From Rhodopseudomonas rhenobacensis (GTDB lineage Bacteria; Pseudomonadota; Alphaproteobacteria; Rhizobiales; Xanthobacteraceae), in assembly GCF_014203125.1 (NCBI RefSeq), contig NZ_JACHIH010000030.1:2217-66216 (forward strand): a DNA stretch of 64,000 bases, read 5' to 3'. Within the stretch, counting starts at the first letter, position 1, and every line of letters starts with the position of its first letter. The translations under genes were made by a program, and so were the position numbers. Positions 4,585-53,351 of the stretch are shown here, one piece after another. The notes under the pieces are model-generated. The model did not search any database and was not told the origin of the DNA. It saw nothing but the letters and a program-made list of their open reading frames with translations.

Positions 4585-4932
4585 GTCTTCAATCCTGAGT
4601 TGGCTCGGCGCGCGCACCAGGCCGAGTTTCCGAAGGGGGATCGTCGTGGGAGAGTGCGGAAGATGCGGCGGAGAGCATAAACCGCGGTGCCACCGCGGCA
4701 AGCCCCGGCTGCCGGGCGCGGGAGTCCGACCTGCAGCGAGGTACCTTGTCTTGCGAACCATTCGGCCTAAAAGGTCGTCACGGCGCAACGCGAGGATTGC
4801 CGCTCGGCAAACGCTTTGCGCCGGAGCAACGAGCCTGGCCGCCTCCGCGGCATCAGATGGCTGACCGCTGCGAAGACCGCGCCGGTGCATCGCCAATTCG
4901 AATTCGGGCCGAGCGGGTGACAGGAGAATCCC
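4585..4932. other. Divergent intergenic region, no gene seen
   Basis: This region of about 350 bases lies between two divergently transcribed genes and must hold both promoters. A small hairpin, ACCGCGG-tgcc-CCGCGG-like, lies near 4681-4698. No open frame here shows recognisable protein sequence, and no RNA gene is apparent. Confidence 0.5.
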
Positions 4933-6051
4933 TTGAGCGTGACGCAGCAGCAAATTCTTGATCGCCTGGCGCAGCTGGCCTCGCCGCGCGGCGTCGCCCT
5001 GACCAAGGCCGGCGTGTTGTCGGAAATCTCCGTCCACGACGGCAAGGTGTATTTCGCCATCAACGTCGAGGCCGGCGAAGTGCGGGCCTGGGAGCCGGTT
5101 CGCGCCGAGGTGGAAGCCGTCGTGAAGGCGATCCCCGGGGTCACGACCGCGCTGGTGGCGCTGACCGCCGAGCGCAAGCCCGGCATGAGCCCGCCCGCGG
5201 CCCGTCCGGGCGTGGCGCCCGCGGCCGCGCATCGGCCGCCGCCGGGTCCCGGTCCGGCCTCGCCGATGTCGAAGCAGGCGGCGATCCCCGGCATCACCTC
5301 GATCATCGCGGTCGCCTCGGGCAAGGGCGGCGTCGGCAAGTCGACCACCGCGCTCAACCTGGCGCTCGGCCTGCGCAACCTCGGCCTCAAGGTCGGGCTG
5401 CTCGACGCCGACATCTACGGCCCCTCGGTTCCCAAGCTGACCGGCATCAACGAGCGGCCGCAGCTCGACGACGACCGCAAGATGATTCCGATCATGCGGT
5501 TCGGCCTGTCGATCATGTCGATCGGCTTTCTGGTCGAAGAAAACAGCGCGATGATCTGGCGCGGCCCGATGGTGATGTCGGCGATCACCCAGATGCTGCG
5601 CGACGTCGCCTGGGGCACGCTCGACGTGCTGGTGGTCGACATGCCGCCCGGCACCGGCGACGCCCAGCTGACGCTGGCGCAGAACGTGCCGCTGCAGGGC
5701 GCGGTGATCGTCTCGACGCCGCAGGACCTGGCGCTGATCGACGCCCGCCGCGGGCTGGCGATGTTCAGCAAGGTCGGCGTGCCGGTGCTCGGCATCGTCG
5801 AGAACATGAGCTACTTCCAATGCCCGGAATGCGGCGCGCGGTCGGATATTTTCGGCCATGGCGGCGCCCGGCAGGAGGCCGAGCGGCTCGGCGTGCCGTT
5901 CCTCGGCGAAGTGCCGCTGCACATGTCGATCCGCGCCAACTCCGACGCCGGCACGCCGGTGGTGGAGAGCGAGCCCACCGGACCCCACGCGGCGATCTAT
6001 GGCGAGATCGCCGGCAAGGTGCGGGATCAGCTCACCGCGGTCACGGCCTGA
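4933..6051 (+). CDS. apbC: Mrp/ApbC (NBP35-type) iron-sulfur cluster carrier ATPase
   Basis: A 372-residue protein. Residues 1-80 form a MIP18/DUF59-like domain, followed by a Pro/Ala-rich linker (85-118). A deviant Walker A P-loop ATPase follows, with KGGVGKS at 131-137, and the Mrp-typical CPEC (C297, C300) that bridges a 4Fe-4S cluster in the dimer. It is thought to hold and transfer Fe-S clusters to apo-enzymes in the cytoplasm. The start is TTG, supported by AGGAG at 4922-4926 at good spacing; no ATG upstream of the DUF59 domain fits. Confidence 0.92.
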   Translation: MSVTQQQILDRLAQLASPRGVALTKAGVLSEISVHDGKVYFAINVEAGEVRAWEPVRAEVEAVVKAIPGVTTALVALTAERKPGMSPPAARPGVAPAAAHRPPPGPGPASPMSKQAAIPGITSIIAVASGKGGVGKSTTALNLALGLRNLGLKVGLLDADIYGPSVPKLTGINERPQLDDDRKMIPIMRFGLSIMSIGFLVEENSAMIWRGPMVMSAITQMLRDVAWGTLDVLVVDMPPGTGDAQLTLAQNVPLQGAVIVSTPQDLALIDARRGLAMFSKVGVPVLGIVENMSYFQCPECGARSDIFGHGGARQEAERLGVPFLGEVPLHMSIRANSDAGTPVVESEPTGPHAAIYGEIAGKVRDQLTAVTA

Positions 6052-6080
6052 ATTTTTCCGCACTGCGGTTGCGGCGCCGG

Positions 6081-6100
6081 CATGCAACTTTGGTTGCATG
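6081..6100 (+). terminator. Hairpin downstream of apbC
   Basis: CATGCAAC-tttg-GTTGCATG is a perfect 8-bp stem with a 4-base loop, 30 bases after the apbC stop. It is not followed by a T run, so it is either a weak terminator or an mRNA 3'-end stabiliser. Confidence 0.45.
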
Positions 6101-6183
6101 TCGCGGCTCCGCGACGTCGCAGCGTTTTCCCGCGGCCGTGCATCGTGATACAGACGCACCCACCAGAGCGTATCGGCGCGTGA

Positions 6184-7338
<1,155 letters not shown>

Positions 7339-7362
7339 TCGATCGACGTATCAACGACAGCG

Positions 7363-7392
7363 AAACGCCCGGCCCAAAGGTCGGGCGTTTTT
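7363..7392 (+). terminator. Rho-independent terminator after the TRAP binding protein
   Basis: AAACGCCCGgCC-caaa-GGtCGGGCGTTT forms a 12-bp stem with one G-T pair and a 4-base loop, running into TTTTT. It lies 24 bases after the stop. It is near-symmetric and may also serve the convergent efflux gene ending at 7443. Confidence 0.88.
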
Positions 7393-7442
7393 GTGTGCGG
7401 TGGGCAAGTCGAGGGCGGGGCCGGGCAGGATGAGCTTGCCCG

Positions 7443-8627
7443 TCACGTTGCAGCGCGGGCAGTCCGGGTGCCGAGAAGAACCAGCGGAATCGCGATTGCA
7501 TAAATGACGACCACCGCGAGCCAGATGGCTCCGGGCCAGTCGTTTTGAACGACAAAGTAGAACGTCGAGAAGGCGAGCGGCGCTGCGATCGACGCCAGGC
7601 TGACGGCCGATGACAGCACGCCTTGCAGCTGACCTTGACGGTCCGGATCAACCTGCTCGGTGGCCAGGGCTTGAAACGCCGGCGTGCCGATTCCGGCGAG
7701 AGCGAACAACGGCATGATGGCGAATACCATCCAGCCCTGATTGGCGAAGGCCAGCGCGACAAGAGCGATGCAGGCGCAGGCAATGCCAACGACAACGGCC
7801 ATGCGTTCGCCGAACAGTCTCGTCGCCGGGCCGGGCAGGAAGGCCTGCACCAGCGTTTGGCAGATACCGAAGGCGCCGAGCGAAAGCCCGATCCACAGGC
7901 CGTTCCATTGAAACGTGTCGAATCCCCACATCGCCCAGCAGACGCCGTAGGCCTCTCCGGTAGCGCTCAAGATGAAGTACACAAAGACGACGGGCAAAAG
8001 CCCCTTCATCGAGAACACCCAACGCAGCGGCCGAAGCGGGTTGAGCGCGGCCAGATCGATCTTCTCACGGGCCGGCGCGCGGGATTCCGGCAGCACGAAC
8101 ACAGCCAGCAGGAGATTGCCGGCGTTCAGCGCGGCGGCAGCGATGAAAGGCAGCCGCAGCCAGGTGTCGCCGAGCAGGCCGCCAAGAACCGGCCCGATGA
8201 TGAAGCCGATACCGAACATGGCGTTGGACAGGCCGAATCTGCGGGCTCGCTGGTCCTCGGACGAAATGTCGGTGATGTAGGCCGTTGCCACGGAGACGTT
8301 GGCGCTGGTCAGGCCGGCAATGGCGCGACCGAGCACCAGCATCCAAAGCTGCGGTGCGAACGCCATGATGACATAGTTGATTGCCGCTCCCGCGAGCGAA
8401 ATCAGCAGCACGGGACGCCTGCCGAGGGTATCGCTCAAAGCGCCGAGCACGGGGGCGAAGACAAACTGCATCACCGCATAGAGCGCGATCATGATCCCGA
8501 TATAGGGCGCAATGTTCGGGTTGTGTGTGACATCCTCAAGAAGCCGCGGCAGAACAGGGAAGACGAGGCCGATGCCGACGGCGTCCAGGCAGATGGTGGC
8601 AAAAATAACGACAAGCGGTCTGTTCAT
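7443..8627 (-). CDS. MFS multidrug/tetracycline-type efflux transporter (TetA family)
   Basis: A 394-residue, 12-TM drug/proton antiporter. It shows the MFS motif A (GALSDTLGRRPVLLISLAGAA), motif C (FGIGFIIGPVLGGLLG) and the N-terminal DAVGIGLVFPVLP block of TetA-class pumps. Relation to TetA classes is clear across the whole length, but resistance to tetracycline is not proven by sequence. The divergent TetR-type regulator at 8775 supports inducible efflux. The start at 8627 (MNRPLVVI) was chosen because the first helix begins there; 31 upstream in-frame codons look unlike protein. The pair lies between the parts of the TRAP transporter, and codon use looks less GC3-biased than the flanks. 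Confidence 0.87.
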   Translation of the reverse strand: MNRPLVVIFATICLDAVGIGLVFPVLPRLLEDVTHNPNIAPYIGIMIALYAVMQFVFAPVLGALSDTLGRRPVLLISLAGAAINYVIMAFAPQLWMLVLGRAIAGLTSANVSVATAYITDISSEDQRARRFGLSNAMFGIGFIIGPVLGGLLGDTWLRLPFIAAAALNAGNLLLAVFVLPESRAPAREKIDLAALNPLRPLRWVFSMKGLLPVVFVYFILSATGEAYGVCWAMWGFDTFQWNGLWIGLSLGAFGICQTLVQAFLPGPATRLFGERMAVVVGIACACIALVALAFANQGWMVFAIMPLFALAGIGTPAFQALATEQVDPDRQGQLQGVLSSAVSLASIAAPLAFSTFYFVVQNDWPGAIWLAVVVIYAIAIPLVLLGTRTARAAT

Positions 8628-8719
8628 GATGAGCCCAGAGAGCAAGCGCCCGCCCGGGCTGCGGTCAGGGGCGATGGCTCCGCCTCGAATATCGCCTTGT
8701 GGCCGCGCCCGATTTTTCA

Positions 8720-8749
8720 TATACTTGGTCCAAATATGTACTCAGTATA
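8720..8749. promoter_or_regulatory. Candidate TetR operator / divergent promoter
   Basis: TATACT (8720-8725) and AGTATA (8744-8749) form an inverted repeat separated by 18 AT-rich bases, in the 147-base divergent gap between the efflux gene and its TetR regulator. This is the expected place for the regulator to bind and shut both promoters. Confidence 0.5.
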
Positions 8750-8774
8750 GTTTCATTAGGCCATCAGGAGCGCC

Positions 8775-9413
8775 ATGTCAATTCCGTCCGACCGCCGATC
8801 GCGGAAGCGTCTCGCCACGCGAGAGGGCATCTCCGACGCGGCAACGCGCCTCTTCATCGAGCGGGGCTTCGATCATGTGACGGTCGACGACATTGCGGCC
8901 GCCGCTGACGTCGGGCGGATGACGGTGTTCAACCATTTCTCCCGCAAAGAGGACATGTTCTTTGATCGCGACGAGGAGGGTCGCCAGATGCTGCGCGAAG
9001 CCTTGCTGCAGCGTGATCCCCGCGTCAGTCTGATCGACACCTATGGTCTGCTCGCTCACCGGCTGATTGCCGAACACAGCCCCGTCGTCGAATTTTCTGC
9101 GCGGAGCCAGAGCTTCATAGAGGCGATCGAGGCCAGCGAAACCCTCAAGGCGCGGGCGAGGGCGATCCGTGACGAGTGCGCGCAAGTCGTAGCGTTGGCG
9201 CTCTCCGAATGCGCAGGCCGAGAACCGGGCGATCCCGACGCCCAATTGGCCGCCGGGCTGCTGTTGGCGGTGTGGACCGTGGCCTTTATTCAGGCGCATC
9301 GGACCTTTCGTCAGACGCGCGATACCGAGCAAGCGAACGCCGCCTTTCTCGCACTTGTCGATAAGGGAAGCAGCGCTCTCAAAGCCGCCATGGCCGGCAC
9401 GCCCTACGCCTGA
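8775..9413 (+). CDS. TetR/AcrR family transcriptional regulator of the adjacent efflux pump
   Basis: A 212-residue regulator. The N-terminal HTH occupies about residues 12-60 (RLATREGISDAATRLFIERGF, then VDDIAAAADVGRMTVFNHFSRKEDMF). The rest is the all-helical ligand-binding and dimerisation domain with no close ligand signature. It is divergent from the TetA-like pump at 7443-8627, so it most likely represses that pump until a drug-like ligand binds. AGGAGC occurs just upstream of the start. Confidence 0.88.
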   Translation: MSIPSDRRSRKRLATREGISDAATRLFIERGFDHVTVDDIAAAADVGRMTVFNHFSRKEDMFFDRDEEGRQMLREALLQRDPRVSLIDTYGLLAHRLIAEHSPVVEFSARSQSFIEAIEASETLKARARAIRDECAQVVALALSECAGREPGDPDAQLAAGLLLAVWTVAFIQAHRTFRQTRDTEQANAAFLALVDKGSSALKAAMAGTPYA

Positions 9414-9471
9414 GCCATCACCTCCGGCTGCGGTTGCGCATGTCTGCTGCGCGCGATGAGGAGCGTGCCCG

Positions 9472-11310
9472 CTACTTCGACGGCCCGAAGTCCAGCGGCG
9501 CCTGGTCCATCGGCGGCAGGTCGAATTCGATCTTGGACGGATCGACGGTCGATGCCGCGCCCTTGTAGTGCATCACCATCGCCGGGAAGGTGATCACCAG
9601 CGCGACCATGATCACCTGGATGATCACGAACGGCACCGCGCCCCAATAGATCTGCCCGGTGGTGACCGGCTCCATGCGCTTGCCGGAGACCCGGTCGATG
9701 TAGGATTCTTTCGGTGCCACCGAGCGCAGATAGAACAGCGCGAAACCGAACGGCGGATGCATGAACGAGGTCTGCATGTTGACGCCGAGCATGACGCCGA
9801 ACCAGATCAGATCGATGCCGAGCTTTTCCGCCGCGGGTCCGAGCAGCGGGATGACGATGAAGGCGAGCTCGAAGAAGTCGAGGAAGAACGCCAGGATGAA
9901 CACGAAGGCGTTGACGAAGATCAGGAAGCCGATCTGGCCGCCGGGCAGCCCGACCAGCAGCTCCTCGACCCAGCGGTGGCCGTCGACGCCGTAGAAGGTC
10001 AGCGAAAACACCCGGGCGCCGACCAGGATGAACACCACGAAGGCCGAGAGTTTCGCGGTCGCCTCGGTGGCCTGGCGGGTGAGGTCGAAGGTCAGCCGGC
10101 CTTTCATCAGCGCCAGGATGATCGCGCCGGCGGCGCCCATCGCGCCGCCTTCGGTGGGCGTGGCAACGCCGATGAAGATGGTGCCGAGCACCAGGAAGAT
10201 CAGCCCGAGCGGCGGCACCATCACGAACACCACCTGCTGCGCCAGCTTCGACAGCAGATGCAGTCCAAGCACGCGGTTGATCACCGCCAGCACGAACGAC
10301 AGCGCCACCGTGATCGACATCGTCAGCACCACGTAGTCGGCGCCGGATTTCACCTCGGTGAAGGACATCGTCACGATGCCGATCGCGCTCGACACCACGA
10401 TCACCAGGAACAGCGACATCGTCATGGTGCGGATGATGCCGATGAAGGGGCGCGTCAGGATCCCCAGCAGAATCACGAACCAGAAGCCATGCTGCACCAG
10501 CTTGCCGAGCCCGATCTTGTCGAATGCCGGCTGCGTCCAGTCGAACAGCCCGACATGGACCACGAAGAAATAGCCGGCCGCCGCCGCCGACAGCGCGGTC
10601 AGCGGCAGGATCAACGGATGTTTCGCGGTTTCCAGCTCGCGCAGCGTCTGCGCTTCGAGCGGCAGCCCCGGCACCGCCTTCGGCGCGATCAGGGTGACGA
10701 GGAAGATATAGCCGGCATACAGCAGCGCCAGCACGATGCCGGGAATGAATGCGCCTTCGTACATGTCGCCGACCGAGCGGCCGAGCTGGTCGGCCATCAC
10801 GATCAGAACCAGCGACGGCGGAATGATCTGCGCCAGCGTGCCGGAGGCGGCGATCACGCCGGTGGCGACGCGGCGGTCGTAGCCGTAGCGCAGCATGATC
10901 GGCAGCGAGATCAGCCCCATCGAGATCACCGAGGCGGCGACCACGCCGGTGGTGGCGGCGAGCAATGCGCCGACAAACACCACCGCATAGGCGATGCCGC
11001 CGCGGATCGAGCCGAACAACTGCCCGATGGTTTCCAGAAGGTCCTCGGCCATGCCCGATCTTTCGAGCACCAGCCCCATGAAGGTGAAAAACGGAATCGC
11101 CAGCAGCGTGTCGTTGTTCATCACGCCGTAGACGCGTTCCGGCAAAGCCTGCAGGAAGTCGGGGCGAAACAGCCCGAGCTCGATGCCGATGAAGGCGAAC
11201 AACAGGCCGTTCGCCGCCAGCGAGAACGCCACCGGATAACCCAGCAGCAGGAACAGCACCAATGACGCGAACATGATCGGCGCCATGTAGTGAATGAACA
11301 TCGCGGTCAT
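9472..11310 (-). CDS. TRAP transporter large permease DctM (FcbT3 type)
   Basis: A 612-residue membrane protein, clearly longer than the about 430 residues of standard DctM. An additional hydrophobic insert (about residues 215-370) splits the usual DctM halves, as in the mannitol/chloroaromatic (FcbT3) branch. DctM hallmarks include FFTFMGLVLERSGMAEDLLE, GVVAASVISMGLISLPIML, ASGTLAQIIPPSLVLIV and the C-terminal PPFGFALFYLRSVAP. It forms the Na+-coupled translocation channel together with DctQ. The gene is 35 bp downstream of dctQ in the same operon and converges on the TetR gene. Confidence 0.9.
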   Translation of the reverse strand: MTAMFIHYMAPIMFASLVLFLLLGYPVAFSLAANGLLFAFIGIELGLFRPDFLQALPERVYGVMNNDTLLAIPFFTFMGLVLERSGMAEDLLETIGQLFGSIRGGIAYAVVFVGALLAATTGVVAASVISMGLISLPIMLRYGYDRRVATGVIAASGTLAQIIPPSLVLIVMADQLGRSVGDMYEGAFIPGIVLALLYAGYIFLVTLIAPKAVPGLPLEAQTLRELETAKHPLILPLTALSAAAAGYFFVVHVGLFDWTQPAFDKIGLGKLVQHGFWFVILLGILTRPFIGIIRTMTMSLFLVIVVSSAIGIVTMSFTEVKSGADYVVLTMSITVALSFVLAVINRVLGLHLLSKLAQQVVFVMVPPLGLIFLVLGTIFIGVATPTEGGAMGAAGAIILALMKGRLTFDLTRQATEATAKLSAFVVFILVGARVFSLTFYGVDGHRWVEELLVGLPGGQIGFLIFVNAFVFILAFFLDFFELAFIVIPLLGPAAEKLGIDLIWFGVMLGVNMQTSFMHPPFGFALFYLRSVAPKESYIDRVSGKRMEPVTTGQIYWGAVPFVIIQVIMVALVITFPAMVMHYKGAASTVDPSKIEFDLPPMDQAPLDFGPSK

Positions 11311-47827: not shown

Positions 47828-48760
47828 CTACCGCCACCGCCGGTGCAACCACAGCCACTGATCGGGATATTCGCGGACCCAGCCTTCGATCGTCGAGGTG
47901 ATCACCTGCATGGTGCCCTGGATGTCGATCTCGCCCTTGGCGTTGCGGATCGGCGGAATCTCTTCGGTGAGTTCGACGCGGAAGCGGTGGTTCGGCAGCC
48001 GGATGATACGGACGCCGTGGATCGGGCAGTCGATCTGCCGCAGCAGCCGGGCCAATAGCGGATTGGCCCTGGTCTTGCGGCCGAAGAACGTCACCTCGAC
48101 TCCGTTGGAGAACCATTGATCGACCAGCATGCCGACATGCTGGCCGCTCTGCAGCGCATGCGCGAGCCGGATCGGTGCGCCGCTGCCGGCGGCGATCAGC
48201 GTGCCCATTTTCACCGCGCGCAATTGCTGCACGATGCGATCGGCGGCGGCGATGTTGGGCGGGCGATACAGCACCGCGGAGTCGAGGCCATGCGCCACCG
48301 CGGCCACCGCCGGCAATTCCCAATTGGCGATGTGGCTGGCGAACACCAGCGCCGGCTTGCCGTCGCGCTGCAATTGCTCGAACAATTCCAGCGTGCGGGG
48401 GGCAAGCTCGATGCGGCCGCGGTTGGGATGCGCCGGATCGAAGTCCCAGATCTGATCGAGATGGGCGAATTCGGCGGCGACCCGACCGAGATTGTCCCAC
48501 ACCCCATCGAGAATGGCGGCGATTTCCTCCGGCGATTTGTCCGGGAATGCGGCGACCAGATTGGCGCGGCCGATTTTGTGCTCCGGCAGATGCGGCCCGA
48601 TCTTGCGAGTCACCCGGCCGAACAAGTTCGCGGTGGCGATCGGATCGAAATGCCGCGTGGTGCGTAACAGCCCGACTGCCAGCGCGCCGACCACGGCGCC
48701 AAGCGCCGACTTGGTCAGCTTGCGGGCGATCGCGGCACTGCGGAGGACGAGCCGGTTCAT
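47828..48760 (-). CDS. lpxXL: LpxXL, very-long-chain acyltransferase of lipid A
   Basis: A 310-residue member of the LpxL/HtrB acyltransferase family. It has an N-terminal membrane segment (about 18-33) and the catalytic HX4E motif at H143-E148 (ASHIANWE). As the last gene of the acpXL cluster it is assigned to transfer 27-hydroxyoctacosanoate (or a similar VLCFA) from AcpXL to the lipid A acyl chain. The start ATG at 48760 overlaps the upstream TGA by one base (TGATG); a GTG one codon earlier is the alternative. Confidence 0.88.
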   Translation of the reverse strand: MNRLVLRSAAIARKLTKSALGAVVGALAVGLLRTTRHFDPIATANLFGRVTRKIGPHLPEHKIGRANLVAAFPDKSPEEIAAILDGVWDNLGRVAAEFAHLDQIWDFDPAHPNRGRIELAPRTLELFEQLQRDGKPALVFASHIANWELPAVAAVAHGLDSAVLYRPPNIAAADRIVQQLRAVKMGTLIAAGSGAPIRLAHALQSGQHVGMLVDQWFSNGVEVTFFGRKTRANPLLARLLRQIDCPIHGVRIIRLPNHRFRVELTEEIPPIRNAKGEIDIQGTMQVITSTIEGWVREYPDQWLWLHRRWR

Positions 48761-49782
48761 CACAGTTTGACGATGATCTTGCCGAACACCTGGCGGCTTT
48801 CCATGCGTTTCAAGGCCACTTCGACGTCCTCGATCGGCACCTCGGTGTCGATCACCGGATGCATGCCGCCGGCGATCTTCTCCAGGCTCTGTTCGATGTT
48901 GCGGATGCTGGCGCCGAACGAGCCGAAGATGCGGTATTGCTGCTGAAACAGCTGCATCAGGTTGATGGTCGCGGTCGGCCCCGAGGTCGAGCCGCAGGTG
49001 ACGAGGCGTCCGCCGCGCTTCATCACCAAGAGCGAGCCGTTGAAGGTGTCGGCACCGACGTGTTCGAACACCACGTCGACGCCCTTCTTCTTGGTGATCT
49101 TGCGGGTCTCGTGCTCGAAGCGGTCGTTGCGATAGTTGATGACGTAGTCGGCGCCGAGCTTCTTCACGCCTTCGATCTTGGAATCGTCGCCGACCGTGGT
49201 GATCACGGTGCAGCCGATCGCCTTCGCCATCATGATCGCCACGGTGCCGATGCCGGAGCCGCCGGCGTGCACCAGGATGGTTTCGCCGGGCTGCAGCTTG
49301 GCGTTGTCGAACAGCATGTGCTGCACGGTGGAAAACGCGATCGGCGCGCAGGCGGCGTCGCGCACGCTGACGCTATCCGGCACCGGGATCACCAGCCGCT
49401 CCGGCATGTTCAATAGTTCGCGGGCGAAGCCGTCGACGTGGAAGCCGATCAGCCCGCCGACGTTCTCGCAGAAATTGTCGCGGCCCTCAACGCAGGGCTT
49501 GCAGTGGCCGCAGGTCAGCGCGCCGTACATCGCGACCTTCTGGCCGACCTTGAAGCGGGTGACGCCGTCGCCGACCGCGGCGATCTCGCCCGCGGCCTCG
49601 GCGCCGACCACGATCGGCAGCTTACGCTTGACGAACGCCATGCCGCGGAAGCCCCAGACGTCGATATGATTGAGCGCCACCGCGCCGACGCGGATCTGCA
49701 CCTCGCCAGCGGCCGGCTGCGGCGGATCGGGAAGTTCTGCAACCACCAATTGGCGGTCGGCGACGAGGGTGAGCGCGCGCAT
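48760..49782 (-). CDS. adh2XL: Zinc-binding medium-chain dehydrogenase of the VLCFA cluster
   Basis: A 340-residue MDR-family oxidoreductase. It has the GroES-like catalytic domain with structural Zn ligands (ALTCGHCKPCVEGRDNFC) and the Rossmann domain with HAGGSGIGTVAIMMAKA. The position between fabF1XL and lpxXL is that of the dehydrogenase of rhizobial VLCFA clusters, proposed to act as the enoyl reductase of C28 acyl synthesis. That role is inferred from context. The start at 49782 (MRALTLVADRQ) fits the family; the open frame upstream is not protein-like. Confidence 0.85.
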   Translation of the reverse strand: MRALTLVADRQLVVAELPDPPQPAAGEVQIRVGAVALNHIDVWGFRGMAFVKRKLPIVVGAEAAGEIAAVGDGVTRFKVGQKVAMYGALTCGHCKPCVEGRDNFCENVGGLIGFHVDGFARELLNMPERLVIPVPDSVSVRDAACAPIAFSTVQHMLFDNAKLQPGETILVHAGGSGIGTVAIMMAKAIGCTVITTVGDDSKIEGVKKLGADYVINYRNDRFEHETRKITKKKGVDVVFEHVGADTFNGSLLVMKRGGRLVTCGSTSGPTATINLMQLFQQQYRIFGSFGASIRNIEQSLEKIAGGMHPVIDTEVPIEDVEVALKRMESRQVFGKIIVKL

Positions 49783-50074: not shown

Positions 50075-51355
50075 CTAGCCCGGTTCGCCGGTCAGGATCA
50101 GCGAGGCGTTCTGGCCGCCGAAGCCGAACGAGTTCGACATCACCGCGGTGACGCGGGCGTCGCGCGCTACGTTCGGCACCACGTCGAACGGAATTGCCGG
50201 ATCGGGGACGTCGTAATTGATGGTCGGCGGGATTCGTTGATGCTCCAGCGTCAACAGCGAGAAGATCGCCTCGACGGCGCCGGCGGCGGACAGCGTGTGG
50301 CCGACCATCGACTTGTTCGACGACACCGGAATCGTGGTGGCGCGTTCGCCGAACACCGTGGAGATGCCGAGATATTCCATCTTGTCGTTTTCCGGCGTGC
50401 CGGTGCCGTGGGCATTGATGTAGTCGATCTGCTCGGCCACCAGGCCCGCATCCGACAACGCGTTGCGCACGCAGCCGACGATCGGCTTGCCGTCGGGGCT
50501 GGAGCGGGTGCGGTGAAAGGAGTCCGCGAGTTCGCCGCAGCCGGCGACGATGCCGAGGATTTTCGCGCCGCGCGCGGTCGCCGAGGCGTAGCTTTCCAGC
50601 ACCAGCGCGCCGGCGCCTTCCGCCATCACGAAGCCGTCGCGGTTCTTGGCGAACGGCTTCACCGCGGCCTGCGGCGGATCGTTCTGGGTCGACAGCGCCG
50701 ACAACAGCGAGAATCGGATCAGCGCTTCGGGATTGACCGAGCCGTCGGTGCCGACGCACAGCGCGGCGTCGACGTCGCCGCGGCGGATCGCCTCGACGCC
50801 GAGCTGGATCGCGGTGGTGCCGGAGGCACACGCGGTCGACAGCGAAATCGGCGAGCCCTTGGTGCCGAAGGTTTCCGACAGATGATCGGCGACCGATCCG
50901 AACAGGAAGCGATGATGATAGGCGCTGTATTGGCCGCCGCCGCTGACGCGCAGCATGGAGTCGTAATTGATCTCGGTGCCGGCGCCGACGGCGCGGGCCA
51001 GTTCCTGGCGCGGCAGCCATTCCAGTTCGACCGGCGCCACCGCGAGAAACAGCGGCCCCGGGAAATCGCCCTTGCGGCCGATGCCGGCCTGCGCGATCGC
51101 CTCTTCGGTAGCGATATTGGCCAGCCGTTCGCCGAGCACGGTGGAGGAGAACGGCTCCACCGGCACGAAGTCGATCGAACCCGCCATCGTGGTCTTCAGG
51201 CCGTCGGTGGGAAAGCGGGTGATGGTGCGAATGCCGGATTCGCCCGCGGTCAGTTTGGCCCAATTGTCGGTCTTGCCGGCGCCGAGCGAGGTCACCACGC
51301 CCATGCCGGTGACGACGACGATCGGACGGCCGAATTTGTCGCGTGTTGCTGTCAT
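50075..51355 (-). CDS. fabF1XL: Beta-ketoacyl-ACP synthase FabF1XL
   Basis: A 426-residue condensing enzyme with an intact catalytic triad: C176 in STACASGTTA, H316 in NAHGTGTPENDK and H353 in NKSMVGHTLSAAGAVE. It should elongate acyl chains carried on AcpXL towards C26-C28. It is preceded by fabF2XL, 25 bp away, whose product lacks the nucleophile; the two probably act as a heterodimer. The start at 51355 (MTATRDKFGRPIVVVTG) is the usual KS N-terminus. Confidence 0.92.
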   Translation of the reverse strand: MTATRDKFGRPIVVVTGMGVVTSLGAGKTDNWAKLTAGESGIRTITRFPTDGLKTTMAGSIDFVPVEPFSSTVLGERLANIATEEAIAQAGIGRKGDFPGPLFLAVAPVELEWLPRQELARAVGAGTEINYDSMLRVSGGGQYSAYHHRFLFGSVADHLSETFGTKGSPISLSTACASGTTAIQLGVEAIRRGDVDAALCVGTDGSVNPEALIRFSLLSALSTQNDPPQAAVKPFAKNRDGFVMAEGAGALVLESYASATARGAKILGIVAGCGELADSFHRTRSSPDGKPIVGCVRNALSDAGLVAEQIDYINAHGTGTPENDKMEYLGISTVFGERATTIPVSSNKSMVGHTLSAAGAVEAIFSLLTLEHQRIPPTINYDVPDPAIPFDVVPNVARDARVTAVMSNSFGFGGQNASLILTGEPG

Positions 51356-51380: not shown

Positions 51381-52589
51381 TTAGCTGACGGCTTCGACCA
51401 GCGCCATGCCTTCGCCGCGCCAATGCCCGGCGCCGACCACCACGATCTGGGTCGGCGGCGCCGAGGTGTCAATTTCGAGCCCGGTCGGATCGTTGGCCGG
51501 AAACAGCGCGCCGCGCGAGATCGCCAGTGCGGCGAGTGCGAGACCGAGCGGAAACTGGCTCTCCATCAGATGGCCGAAGCTGGTGCCGGTGGCGCGCACC
51601 GCGATGCCGGGATGCTTTTCGAGGAACGCGCGCTCCTCGGCGGTCGCCGGAGCCGCGCCGGTCGCGCCGGTGATAATGGCGCTGGCGTTGTCCGGGGAGC
51701 CGAGTTTCTTCCACAGCTTTTCCAGCGTCGCGGTGACGTCGCCGGGCTGTTTGCGATGCGACAGGTCGGCGACGACGTTGGTCAGCCGCGCCAGCGGCTT
51801 GGCGCCGCGCGCTTCGGCGTGCTGGCGGGATTCGATCACCACGAAGGCGGCGCCGGAGCCGAGCGCAAAGCCGGGCTGGCCGTCGCGCGCCCACACCGGC
51901 TGGTAGGCGTTCTTCAGATTGAAGTCGCCGAACTCGTAGAGCATCAACAGGTCTTTGCGCTCGCCGTTCTGCGCGGCGCCGATCAGCGCGATGTCGCTTT
52001 GGCCGGCGGCGATCCGCGCCAACGCGATCCGCGCCGCGTCGGTGCCGGCGGCTTCCTCGCCCATGAAGGTGCGCGACGAGCCGGTGACGCCGTGCACGAT
52101 GGCGATGTTGCCGGCGAGCAGGTTGGACAGCTGCGCCAGAAACAGCGTCGGCCGCAGATCGTTCATCAGCCGTTCGTTGAGATAGCCGGGCGACGCATTG
52201 CCCTGGCCCTCGGAATTCAGAATCGCGGAATCCACCGCCAGATCGCGCTCGCCGCCGCCGGCGGCGACGATCATGTCCATCTTCGAGAGAATATCTTTGT
52301 TGCCCTTGATCCCGGCGGAATCCAGCGCGAGGCCGGCGGCATAGGTGCCGATCCGCTGCCAGGCTTCCATCTGCCGCTGATCGCCCTTTTTCGGGATCTG
52401 CTGATCGAAGCTGATCGGCGCCAGAGGATGCACCACATAGGGCGCAAACGTCGTGGCGTCGGCGTTGACGCGGCGCTCGTTCAGCGCCTGCCAATGCGCG
52501 TCGAGCCCTTCGCTCAGCGAGGAGGCGAGCCCGATCCCGGTGATCCAGGCTTCCACAGGTTGCGTTGCGGTCGTGTGCGTCTCAGCCAT
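51381..52589 (-). CDS. fabF2XL: FabF2XL, ketosynthase homologue lacking the active-site Cys
   Basis: A 402-residue thiolase-fold protein. Ungapped comparison with FabF around the nucleophile elbow places Glu179 (GEEAAG) at the Cys of TACTSG. The first catalytic His region (HGTxTP) is replaced by TGATGAAPATAE. The second His survives in TSFGHLMESQ, but the preceding Lys is lost. It cannot carry out normal condensation. It is adjacent to the intact FabF1XL and overlaps fabZXL by 8 bases. A chain-length-factor-like or regulatory role is an inference. Confidence 0.88.
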   Translation of the reverse strand: MAETHTTATQPVEAWITGIGLASSLSEGLDAHWQALNERRVNADATTFAPYVVHPLAPISFDQQIPKKGDQRQMEAWQRIGTYAAGLALDSAGIKGNKDILSKMDMIVAAGGGERDLAVDSAILNSEGQGNASPGYLNERLMNDLRPTLFLAQLSNLLAGNIAIVHGVTGSSRTFMGEEAAGTDAARIALARIAAGQSDIALIGAAQNGERKDLLMLYEFGDFNLKNAYQPVWARDGQPGFALGSGAAFVVIESRQHAEARGAKPLARLTNVVADLSHRKQPGDVTATLEKLWKKLGSPDNASAIITGATGAAPATAEERAFLEKHPGIAVRATGTSFGHLMESQFPLGLALAALAISRGALFPANDPTGLEIDTSAPPTQIVVVGAGHWRGEGMALVEAVS

Positions 52590-53055
52590 GGGCGATCGCC
52601 TGTTGCGGAAAACCGATGCGTTCAGCCATCACTTCCATATGGCCGCGCAGATCCGGGTTCGGGAACGGCACGTGACGGAAGGTGAGGGTGGCGTTGCAGG
52701 CCAGCTTGCCGCCGCTCGAGATCTTGGCGGAGGTCATGCTGTAGCCGGATCCTTCGTGAACCAGGCTGGCCTCGATGGTCAGCAGTTCGCCGGGGGTGAC
52801 GAAGCTGCGCATCTTGGCTTCCTTCACCGCGGCGAGAAACGGCATGCGTTCGAACTTCATCAGCGCGATCAACAGCCAGCCCGAGGTCTGCGCCATGGTC
52901 TCGATCAACAGCACGCCCGGCATCAACGGATAGCCGGGAAAATGCCCCTCGAAGATCGTGCTCTCCTGCGGGACCTGGGCTTCGACCGTGATGCTGCGGC
53001 TGTCGACGTCGAGCGCGACAATCCGATCGATCAGATGGAAATAAGCAAGGTTCAT
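52582..53055 (-). CDS. fabZXL: 3-hydroxyacyl-ACP dehydratase FabZXL
   Basis: A 157-residue single hot-dog domain dehydratase with the catalytic His38 (EGHFPGYPLMPG) and Glu52 (LLIETMAQ). It removes water from 3-hydroxyacyl-AcpXL during VLCFA elongation. The start at 53055 lies 11 bp after the acpXL stop. The 3' end overlaps fabF2XL by 8 bases. Confidence 0.92.
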   Translation of the reverse strand: MNLAYFHLIDRIVALDVDSRSITVEAQVPQESTIFEGHFPGYPLMPGVLLIETMAQTSGWLLIALMKFERMPFLAAVKEAKMRSFVTPGELLTIEASLVHEGSGYSMTSAKISSGGKLACNATLTFRHVPFPNPDLRGHMEVMAERIGFPQQAIAHG

Positions 53056-53066
53056 CGGCGTGGGCG

Positions 53067-53351
53067 CTACGCGCCCTTGGCCGCGACCAATTCGTCGATG
53101 CGGGCGCTGAGATTGCTGAGCACGAAGTACTGCTCGGTGGTCGCCTTGCCGTCGTTGACCTCCTGGGTCCACTTTTCCAGCGGCAGCTTGATCCCGAACG
53201 CCTTGTCGATGGCGAAGGCGATGTCGAGGAAGTCGAGGCTGTCGATCCCCAGATCGTCGATCGCGTGGCTTTCCGGCGTGATCGTGTCGCGCGGAATGTC
53301 GCAGGTTTCCGCAATGATTGTAGCGACCCGATCAAAAGTGGAAGTCATCAT
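53067..53351 (-). CDS. acpXL: Acyl carrier protein AcpXL
   Basis: A 94-residue acyl carrier protein, longer than standard ACP (about 78) as is typical for AcpXL. The phosphopantetheine Ser38 is in [21 protein letters not shown]. The C-terminal part ([22 protein letters not shown]) is the AcpXL-specific extension. It carries the growing C26-C28 hydroxy fatty acid for lipid A. It is the first gene of the six-gene cluster; two adjacent ATGs (53351 and 53348) are possible starts. Confidence 0.95.

Follow-up and report, generated by a model that had tools for sequence, protein, structure and literature searches.

FabF2XL, a ketosynthase-like protein without the catalytic cysteine, as a probable chain-length-factor-like partner of FabF1XL in lipid A very-long-chain fatty acid synthesis

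The lipid A acyl chain of rhizobia and their kin stops at 26-30 carbons, and the cluster that makes it carries two 'FabF' genes; both facts call for an explanation. Both genes occur in the window, by which we mean the whole analysed stretch of 64,000 nucleotides from Rhodopseudomonas rhenobacensis, within what is the known cluster for the lipid A very-long-chain fatty acid (VLCFA). The cluster is encoded on the minus strand in the order acpXL, fabZXL, fabF2XL, fabF1XL, a dehydrogenase gene and lpxXL. The dedicated acyl carrier protein AcpXL (53067-53351) matched NF005079 with 181.1 bits (cut-off 83), and LpxXL (47828-48763), the acyltransferase that according to the literature places the VLCFA on lipid A, matched NF005120 with 466.1 bits (cut-off 273). 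For the 3-hydroxyacyl-ACP dehydratase FabZXL (52582-53055) the top NCBIfam match was FabZ with 90.6 bits, under the cut-off of 113, and for the MDR-type dehydrogenase FabXL/AdhXL (48760-49782) the top NCBIfam matches listed were MDR-type families, all of them below cut-off; the starts of both genes were picked by eye. FabF1XL (50075-51355), the proposed catalytic subunit, matched NF005076 with 777.7 bits (cut-off 629). The gene in question, fabF2XL (51381-52589), encodes 402 amino acids, overlaps the 3' end of fabZXL by 8 nt at its start and is separated from fabF1XL by 25 nt. Its top NCBIfam match was NF005084 (PRK06519, 'beta-ketoacyl-ACP synthase') with 626.6 bits against a cut-off of 320, and the closest named FabF2XL found, that of Rhodopseudomonas faecalis, is 81% identical. 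One FabF2XL is present in this genome; the only other match to the protein, a weak one at 29% identity and E 8e-9, has the Cys and aligns like any ordinary FabF.

To compare the active sites, three ketosynthase (KS) and chain length factor (CLF) pairs of type II polyketide synthases (PKSs) from actinobacterial plasmids were translated, and two of them were aligned with FabF2XL, FabF1XL, E. coli FabF and the genome's own FabF. In this eight-protein alignment Glu179 of FabF2XL falls on C163 of E. coli FabF, which confirms the placement of Glu179 at the catalytic Cys position in a preliminary description of this DNA and shows its residue numbers to be correct; that description did not mention the minus-strand location of the gene. 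The former nucleophile elbow is formed by codons 177-179, Gly-Glu-Glu (52053-52061, minus strand). The His of the HGT motif, reported there as replaced, is missing at codon 310 (Thr; 51660-51662, minus strand), and the second active-site His, reported as kept, is indeed found at codon 340 (51570-51572, minus strand). An alternative alignment (A1) puts the first-His column at S303 rather than T310, and neither residue is a His. Only the second His remains of the Cys-His-His-Lys active site of FabF. The full triad claimed for the neighbour was borne out as well: C176/H316/H353 of FabF1XL align with C163/H303/H340 of E. coli FabF, and the two proteins also agree at K335 and at both Phe of the GFGG motif.

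The conservation of these differences was followed in two sequence sets. FabF2XL and FabF1XL proteins for the first set were taken from 162 sequences, namely the window, the order-level loci and 80 named loci, leaving out L002 (the housekeeping FabF), one half of the split FabF1XL of L118 and the cut FabF1XL of L046. With identical sequences counted once, the Cys column held Glu in 161 and Asp in one of 162 distinct FabF2XL proteins, and Cys in 155 of 157 distinct FabF1XL proteins. The second set consisted of 172 pairs, in which identical sequences were retained: 14 pairs from the class sample were added to the first set, and the window copies L001 and L004, L170 (the same gene as L056) and the cut L184 were left out. 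As these pairs come from related genomes, they do not count as independent events; at 80% identity their Neff is 55.5. Position 179 of FabF2XL is Glu in 171/172 and Asp in 1/172, a state that is held down to the lowest pairwise FabF2XL identity among the rows (35%), and the conservation of Glu179 that the preliminary description had left to be checked was thus verified. Gly177 and Glu178 are present in all 172. The first-His column contains T (121), S (37), C (8), N (5) and one gap, with His in 0/172, and the column of FabF Lys335 contains mostly G (135), followed by A (18), S (8) and Q (6). The second His, His340, is found in 155/172, with another residue in 16 and a gap or other character in 1. 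No FabF2XL that keeps the Cys-His-His triad was detected among the 172. In FabF1XL the Cys is present in 170/172; the remaining two rows are accounted for by a split frame in L118 and an ambiguous base in L067. The split frame belongs to Bradyrhizobium tropiciagri SEMIA 6148, where FabF1XL is spread over two frames (6174-6923 and 6356-7474) by a frameshift or an assembly error. NF005084 is an 'equivalog' family named beta-ketoacyl-ACP synthase, yet its members here lack the catalytic Cys; the name carries a doubtful function into genome annotation.

The conserved columns are unevenly distributed along FabF2XL. In residues 144-182, a segment picked after inspection of the columns, 23 of 39 columns are at least 98% one residue as opposed to 36 of 350 elsewhere (Fisher p 1.5e-11). 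This segment presumably contains the helix and strand through which ketosynthases dimerise, and extends up to the nucleophile elbow. The matching segment of FabF1XL has only 6 of 39 columns at this level, and conservation there shifts towards the C-terminal, catalytic half, where residues 306-360 have 23 of 55 such columns. Outside 144-182, residues E114-R115-D116, D120, E319, E343 and E393 of FabF2XL are also nearly or fully invariant. Because conservation is concentrated at 144-182, the elbow and the charged residues, FabF2XL is not a decaying protein. Judged from the aligned sequences, it has exchanged the catalytic constraint for one that acts on the contact region and on the former active site. 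It is our guess that the invariant charged residues pack against one another.

Published genetics indicate that this protein matters for the pathway. According to the accessible part of a study of Agrobacterium fabrum C58, in which the wild-type lipid A VLCFA is mainly C28 with minor C30, an insertion in fabF2XL abolished all lipid A VLCFA, and fabF2XL alone on a plasmid partially restored it (PMC11901934). The same available text places fabF2XL first in a four-gene transcript, so that polarity may add to the defect; restoration in trans shows that VLCFA synthesis depends on the FabF2XL protein itself. Attempts to mutate acpXL, fabZXL, fabF1XL and fabF2XL in Bradyrhizobium ORS278 yielded no mutants, as stated in the accessible portion of that report (PMC5613085). 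Taken together, the mutant phenotype and the missing nucleophile indicate that a ketosynthase-like protein without a nucleophile is required for elongation. A word search of the available text of PMC11901934 found no instance of cysteine, active site, catalytic, chain length or heterodimer; in that of PMC5613085 it found neither chain length factor nor active site nor heterodimer, and cysteine three times, in the references only. A literature search, which mostly excluded subscription papers, found no report linking a chain length factor or a heterodimer to lipid A VLCFA synthesis.

Genome surveys were used to see which protein FabF2XL travels with. Among 150 genomes from the order, the 38 in which FabF1XL passed its cut-off were precisely the 38 in which FabF2XL did so, and the other 112 had neither above cut-off; these 112 genomes without FabF1XL contain FabF-like matches and no FabF2XL over cut-off. 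FabF1XL directly adjoins FabF2XL on the same strand in 160 of 165 FabF2XL open reading frames, with a median gap of about 34 nt. Three further FabF2XL genes (L046, L051 and L081) have an adjacent FabF1XL that is cut by the edge of the stretch, which raises the count to 163/165, and the FabF2XL of L113 ends with its contig. The sole real exception is L064 (4022-5350, genome G046), a full-length FabF2XL followed by about 4 kb without FabF1XL; the same genome, assembled in about 550 contigs, carries a complete pair elsewhere (L054) and an extra FabF1XL near the start of another contig. The position of FabF2XL beside FabF1XL, as first described for the window, thus holds in nearly all of these cases. 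As operon genes tend to co-occur anyway, the pairing backs a shared pathway strongly and direct contact only moderately.

In wider samples, 78 of 297 genomes from the order had FabF2XL above cut-off, as did 18 of 385 in the class sample and 20 of 200 in the phylum sample, where all 20 belong to the class of the window, which that sample includes. The scores of the class run were bimodal, with none between 371 and 94 bits. Several genomes carry more than a single pair. Two complete tandem FabF2XL-FabF1XL pairs were found at L055 (genome G289; 4759-7368 and 8460-10972), and one genus (G011, G059, G096 and G156) carries a second, diverged pair (L045, 13445-15782; L046, 1-2119; L051, 1-1574; L081, 3-1603). 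The diverged FabF2XL is spread over two frames in L045 and has an incomplete C-terminal half in both L051 and L081, which gives it some resemblance to the short CLF-like partners known from other systems. Natural FabF2XL-FabF1XL fusions were not seen among the loci examined. The long FabF1XL-holding frames of L177 and L185 were considered as fusions and rejected, as FabF2XL sits in a different frame.

The preliminary description had compared the elbow of FabF2XL with the EQAGG setting of chain length factors, and the alignment with genuine CLFs supported this: the CLF elbows VSEQAGGLDA and VTDHAGGLDA lie over MGEEAAGTDA of FabF2XL, with SEQAGGLDA in register with GEEAAGTDA. Like FabF2XL, the actinorhodin CLF (PDB 1tqy_B) has a ketosynthase fold with the Cys replaced, an ACP in its cluster and an intact-triad KS in the adjacent gene. 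CLFs and FabF2XL also share an acidic residue at -1 and an Asp at +5 of the elbow; the latter is found in 127/172 FabF2XL proteins, and the aligned PKS KSs share it. The differences are equally distinct. At the Cys position the actinorhodin CLF has Gln whereas FabF2XL has Glu, and one of the two aligned CLFs has His. The CLFs retain the Lys without the second His; in FabF2XL the situation is the opposite. The gate residues of the actinorhodin CLF, which we take to be Phe109 and Phe116 in its numbering and which were matched through the preceding GG, fall on E114 and S121 of FabF2XL; E114 is present in 169/172, and position 121 is variable (S/T/G/A/L/E and others). In Pfam searches FabF2XL matched PF00109, the N-terminal ketosynthase domain, with 50.1 bits (cut-off 20.8), but gave no match to the C-terminal domain PF02801, which both tested CLFs match, so that its C-terminal half is hardly recognisable, unlike theirs. 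The gene order is reversed with respect to the actinobacterial systems, as the CLF-like fabF2XL precedes the KS gene, and the product, a saturated lipid A fatty acid, differs from those of PKS CLF systems. As the canonical CLF features (Gln, gate Phe and Lys) are absent, FabF2XL may be described as CLF-like in action and is not classed as a CLF; there is a good probability that it is CLF-like in mechanism without being a canonical CLF by its residues. As an observation on its own, the lone FabF2XL with Asp179 (L074) reads GEDPGGL in this region, which is even closer to the CLF elbow.

Degenerate ketosynthase partners outside the canonical CLFs provide a precedent. In the available part of its description, AntE of Photorhabdus carries Asp in place of the Cys, shows no CLF similarity over its C-terminal third and nevertheless forms a soluble heterodimer with AntD (PMC6638757). 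The acidic residue and the diverged C-terminal third of AntE (AntD-AntE, PDB 6smo) resemble those of FabF2XL; the residue is Asp rather than Glu, and the product is an anthraquinone. AntE ranked 20 of 71 among the PDB sequence matches of the FabF2XL profile, with 42.2 bits, and AntD followed just below with 39. AmcG (CYF), as the accessible text reports, lacks functional motifs and forms a heterodimer with the active KS AmcF in cispentacin synthase (PMC10698177); it is likewise a degenerate KS partner and differs in that its system performs one C2 elongation and a cyclisation. The heterodimers of AntE and AmcG set a precedent for a FabF2XL-FabF1XL heterodimer. ApeO-ApeC is described, in the accessible portion of its report, as a Gram-negative KS-CLF pair whose CLF half has no cavity, as in other CLFs (PMC8358021). 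The idea of a fatty-acid counterpart of the KS-CLF, put forward in the preliminary description, already has a precedent in the polyunsaturated fatty acid (PUFA) synthases, whose KS-CLF didomain (PfaC/subunit B) is tied to very long chain elongation in the part of the source available (PMC9702510). This didomain resembles the role proposed for FabF2XL in placing a CLF in fatty acid synthesis, and differs in that KS and CLF are domains of a multidomain enzyme with polyunsaturated products. The nearest PDB sequence matches and the nearest fold for FabF2XL are those of FabF (KAS II), which differs in being a homodimer with the full Cys-His-His-Lys set, of which FabF2XL has only the second His.

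Structure prediction, covariation and phylogeny were applied to the same question. The predicted model of FabF2XL (pLDDT 67.8, pTM 0.75, weak at 112-149) matched ketosynthases in a fold search with Z of about 32-33.5 over 318-342 residues, and FabF2XL is, according to this model, of ketosynthase fold. FabFs, PKS KSs, CLFs and KSQ domains all lie within a few Z units of one another, so that the search confirms the fold and not the class. The model of FabF1XL had a pLDDT of 38.2 and was set aside. Covariation between the two proteins was computed by mean-field DCA on 527 variable columns of the 172 paired rows, which amount to few effective sequences (Neff 75); none of the top 50 pairs (1.3 expected) and 2 of the top 200 (5.2 expected) fell in the presumed interface, which was approximated by a stretch of residues, so that no enrichment was seen there. 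In a maximum-likelihood tree of 42 rows, FabF2XL, FabF1XL, CLF and PKS KS each form one clade, and FabF2XL sits on one long branch (1.77). The approximately unbiased (AU) test rejected neither a FabF2XL+CLF clade (p 0.478) nor a FabF2XL+FabF1XL clade (p 0.374).

The favoured reading is that FabF2XL is probably a non-catalytic, CLF-like partner of FabF1XL in the AcpXL-dependent lipid A VLCFA pathway. It is read as a partner of FabF1XL because the triad is lost in FabF2XL and kept in FabF1XL and the genes are paired. From the cluster content, malonyl-AcpXL and acyl-AcpXL are assumed to be the substrates. FabF1XL would hold the growing chain on C176 and perform each condensation, as its residues suggest, and FabF2XL would form the other half of a dimer with it, a heterodimer that we likewise consider probable. 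The invariant Gly-Glu-Glu, together with invariant charged residues close by, would shut the pocket of FabF2XL; a closure by E178/E179 and the charged residues around them has about an even chance of being correct. The surface of FabF2XL may then complete the deep acyl tunnel of FabF1XL and help to bound the length at C26-C30, and a part of FabF2XL in setting this length is possible, at slightly below an even chance. Because the gate residues are unlike those of the actinorhodin CLF, length would be bounded in a different way, if by FabF2XL. The KS-CLF-like scheme of the preliminary description therefore stands in part: the conserved loss of the Cys, the intact neighbour, the register with the CLF motif and the published need for VLCFA synthesis agree with it, and the gate residues, which are not CLF-like, do not.

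Other functions have to be weighed against this reading. That FabF2XL is an active ketosynthase, with Glu179 or another residue as nucleophile, would agree with its NCBIfam name of beta-ketoacyl synthase and with the Pfam match to the N-terminal ketosynthase domain. A Glu is unable to hold a thioester, and with an elbow devoid of Cys and with the first His and the Lys gone, this is extremely improbable. A KSQ-like decarboxylase that makes the starter, for example acetyl-AcpXL from malonyl-AcpXL, with an acidic residue in place of Gln, would account for a conservation of Gly-Glu-Glu beyond what a simple plug might require, and the fold search returned solved KSQ structures at similar Z. In KSQ domains the Cys is replaced by Gln and both catalytic His are kept, whereas FabF2XL has Glu there, the first His in 0/172 (171 another residue, 1 gap), a non-His at the second position in 17 (1 of them a gap) and no Lys; a carboxylate would, moreover, be expected to repel the malonyl carboxylate. 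Such a decarboxylase is thus very unlikely.

The remaining alternatives accept a non-catalytic FabF2XL and concern its partner or its task. It might pair with another ketosynthase, such as the housekeeping FabF, or act as a homodimeric scaffold for AcpXL docking. The null covariation result for a FabF1XL-FabF2XL contact, the resemblance of the FabF1XL sequence to homodimeric FabFs and the FabF2XL of L064 with no FabF1XL beside it would fit this proposal, but the phyletic coupling with FabF1XL in 150/150 genomes, the gene adjacency and the lack of FabF2XL over cut-off in the 112 genomes that have FabF-like matches and no FabF1XL argue against it and make it improbable. A weaker form of the favoured reading, compatible with the heterodimer, is that FabF2XL is required only for FabF1XL to fold or stay stable and does not influence chain length. 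The gate positions unlike those of CLFs point in this direction, as do the accessible accounts of the RemB (PMC6638757) and AmcG (PMC10698177) systems, in which one partner is insoluble without the other. Set against this are a charged core and an elbow conserved beyond what a scaffold may need, and the narrow range of lipid A chain lengths in A. fabrum (C28 major and C30 minor in the available text of PMC11901934), so that a stability role alone is rather doubtful.

A CLF-like subunit, as favoured here, would make the length rule testable by point mutants at one interface, and the usual family annotation as a beta-ketoacyl-ACP synthase would mislead. The KS-CLF principle would also no longer be confined to secondary metabolism and PUFA synthases, and would include a core lipid of the envelope of symbiotic bacteria. 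We tentatively suggest, as a possibility somewhat below an even chance, that FabF2XL founds a separate class of CLF for outer-membrane fatty acid synthesis. This would be a dissociated KS-CLF for saturated chains, which may have arisen from a ketosynthase separately from the polyketide CLFs and in which the dead site became a strictly conserved charged core that measures the C26-C30 lipid A chain together with FabF1XL. The core would comprise E114-R115-D116, D120, R146, R173, E178-E179, E343 and E393.

Some further observations were made on FabF1XL and on other ketosynthase-like genes. Residues 105-116 of FabF1XL in the window (50075-51355) read AVAPVELEW at the FabF gate (Ile108), unlike FabF, with P108 in 172/172, E110 in 165/172 and W113 in 170/172; the alignment is uncertain here, as A1 puts V123 at Ile108. 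This unusual stretch may be tied to a deeper acyl tunnel. In PDB 9s5h, chains B and C are two different KS-like chains, both named 3-oxoacyl-ACP synthase, which may represent another KS heterocomplex. An E. coli plasmid (NZ_CP104501; L168, 7968-10976) carries a KS gene with genes for an ACP, an SDR reductase and a hypothetical protein, adjoining C39 peptidase, RND adaptor, ATP-binding cassette and TolC genes; this set resembles a small operon for the tailoring of a lipid or polyketide.
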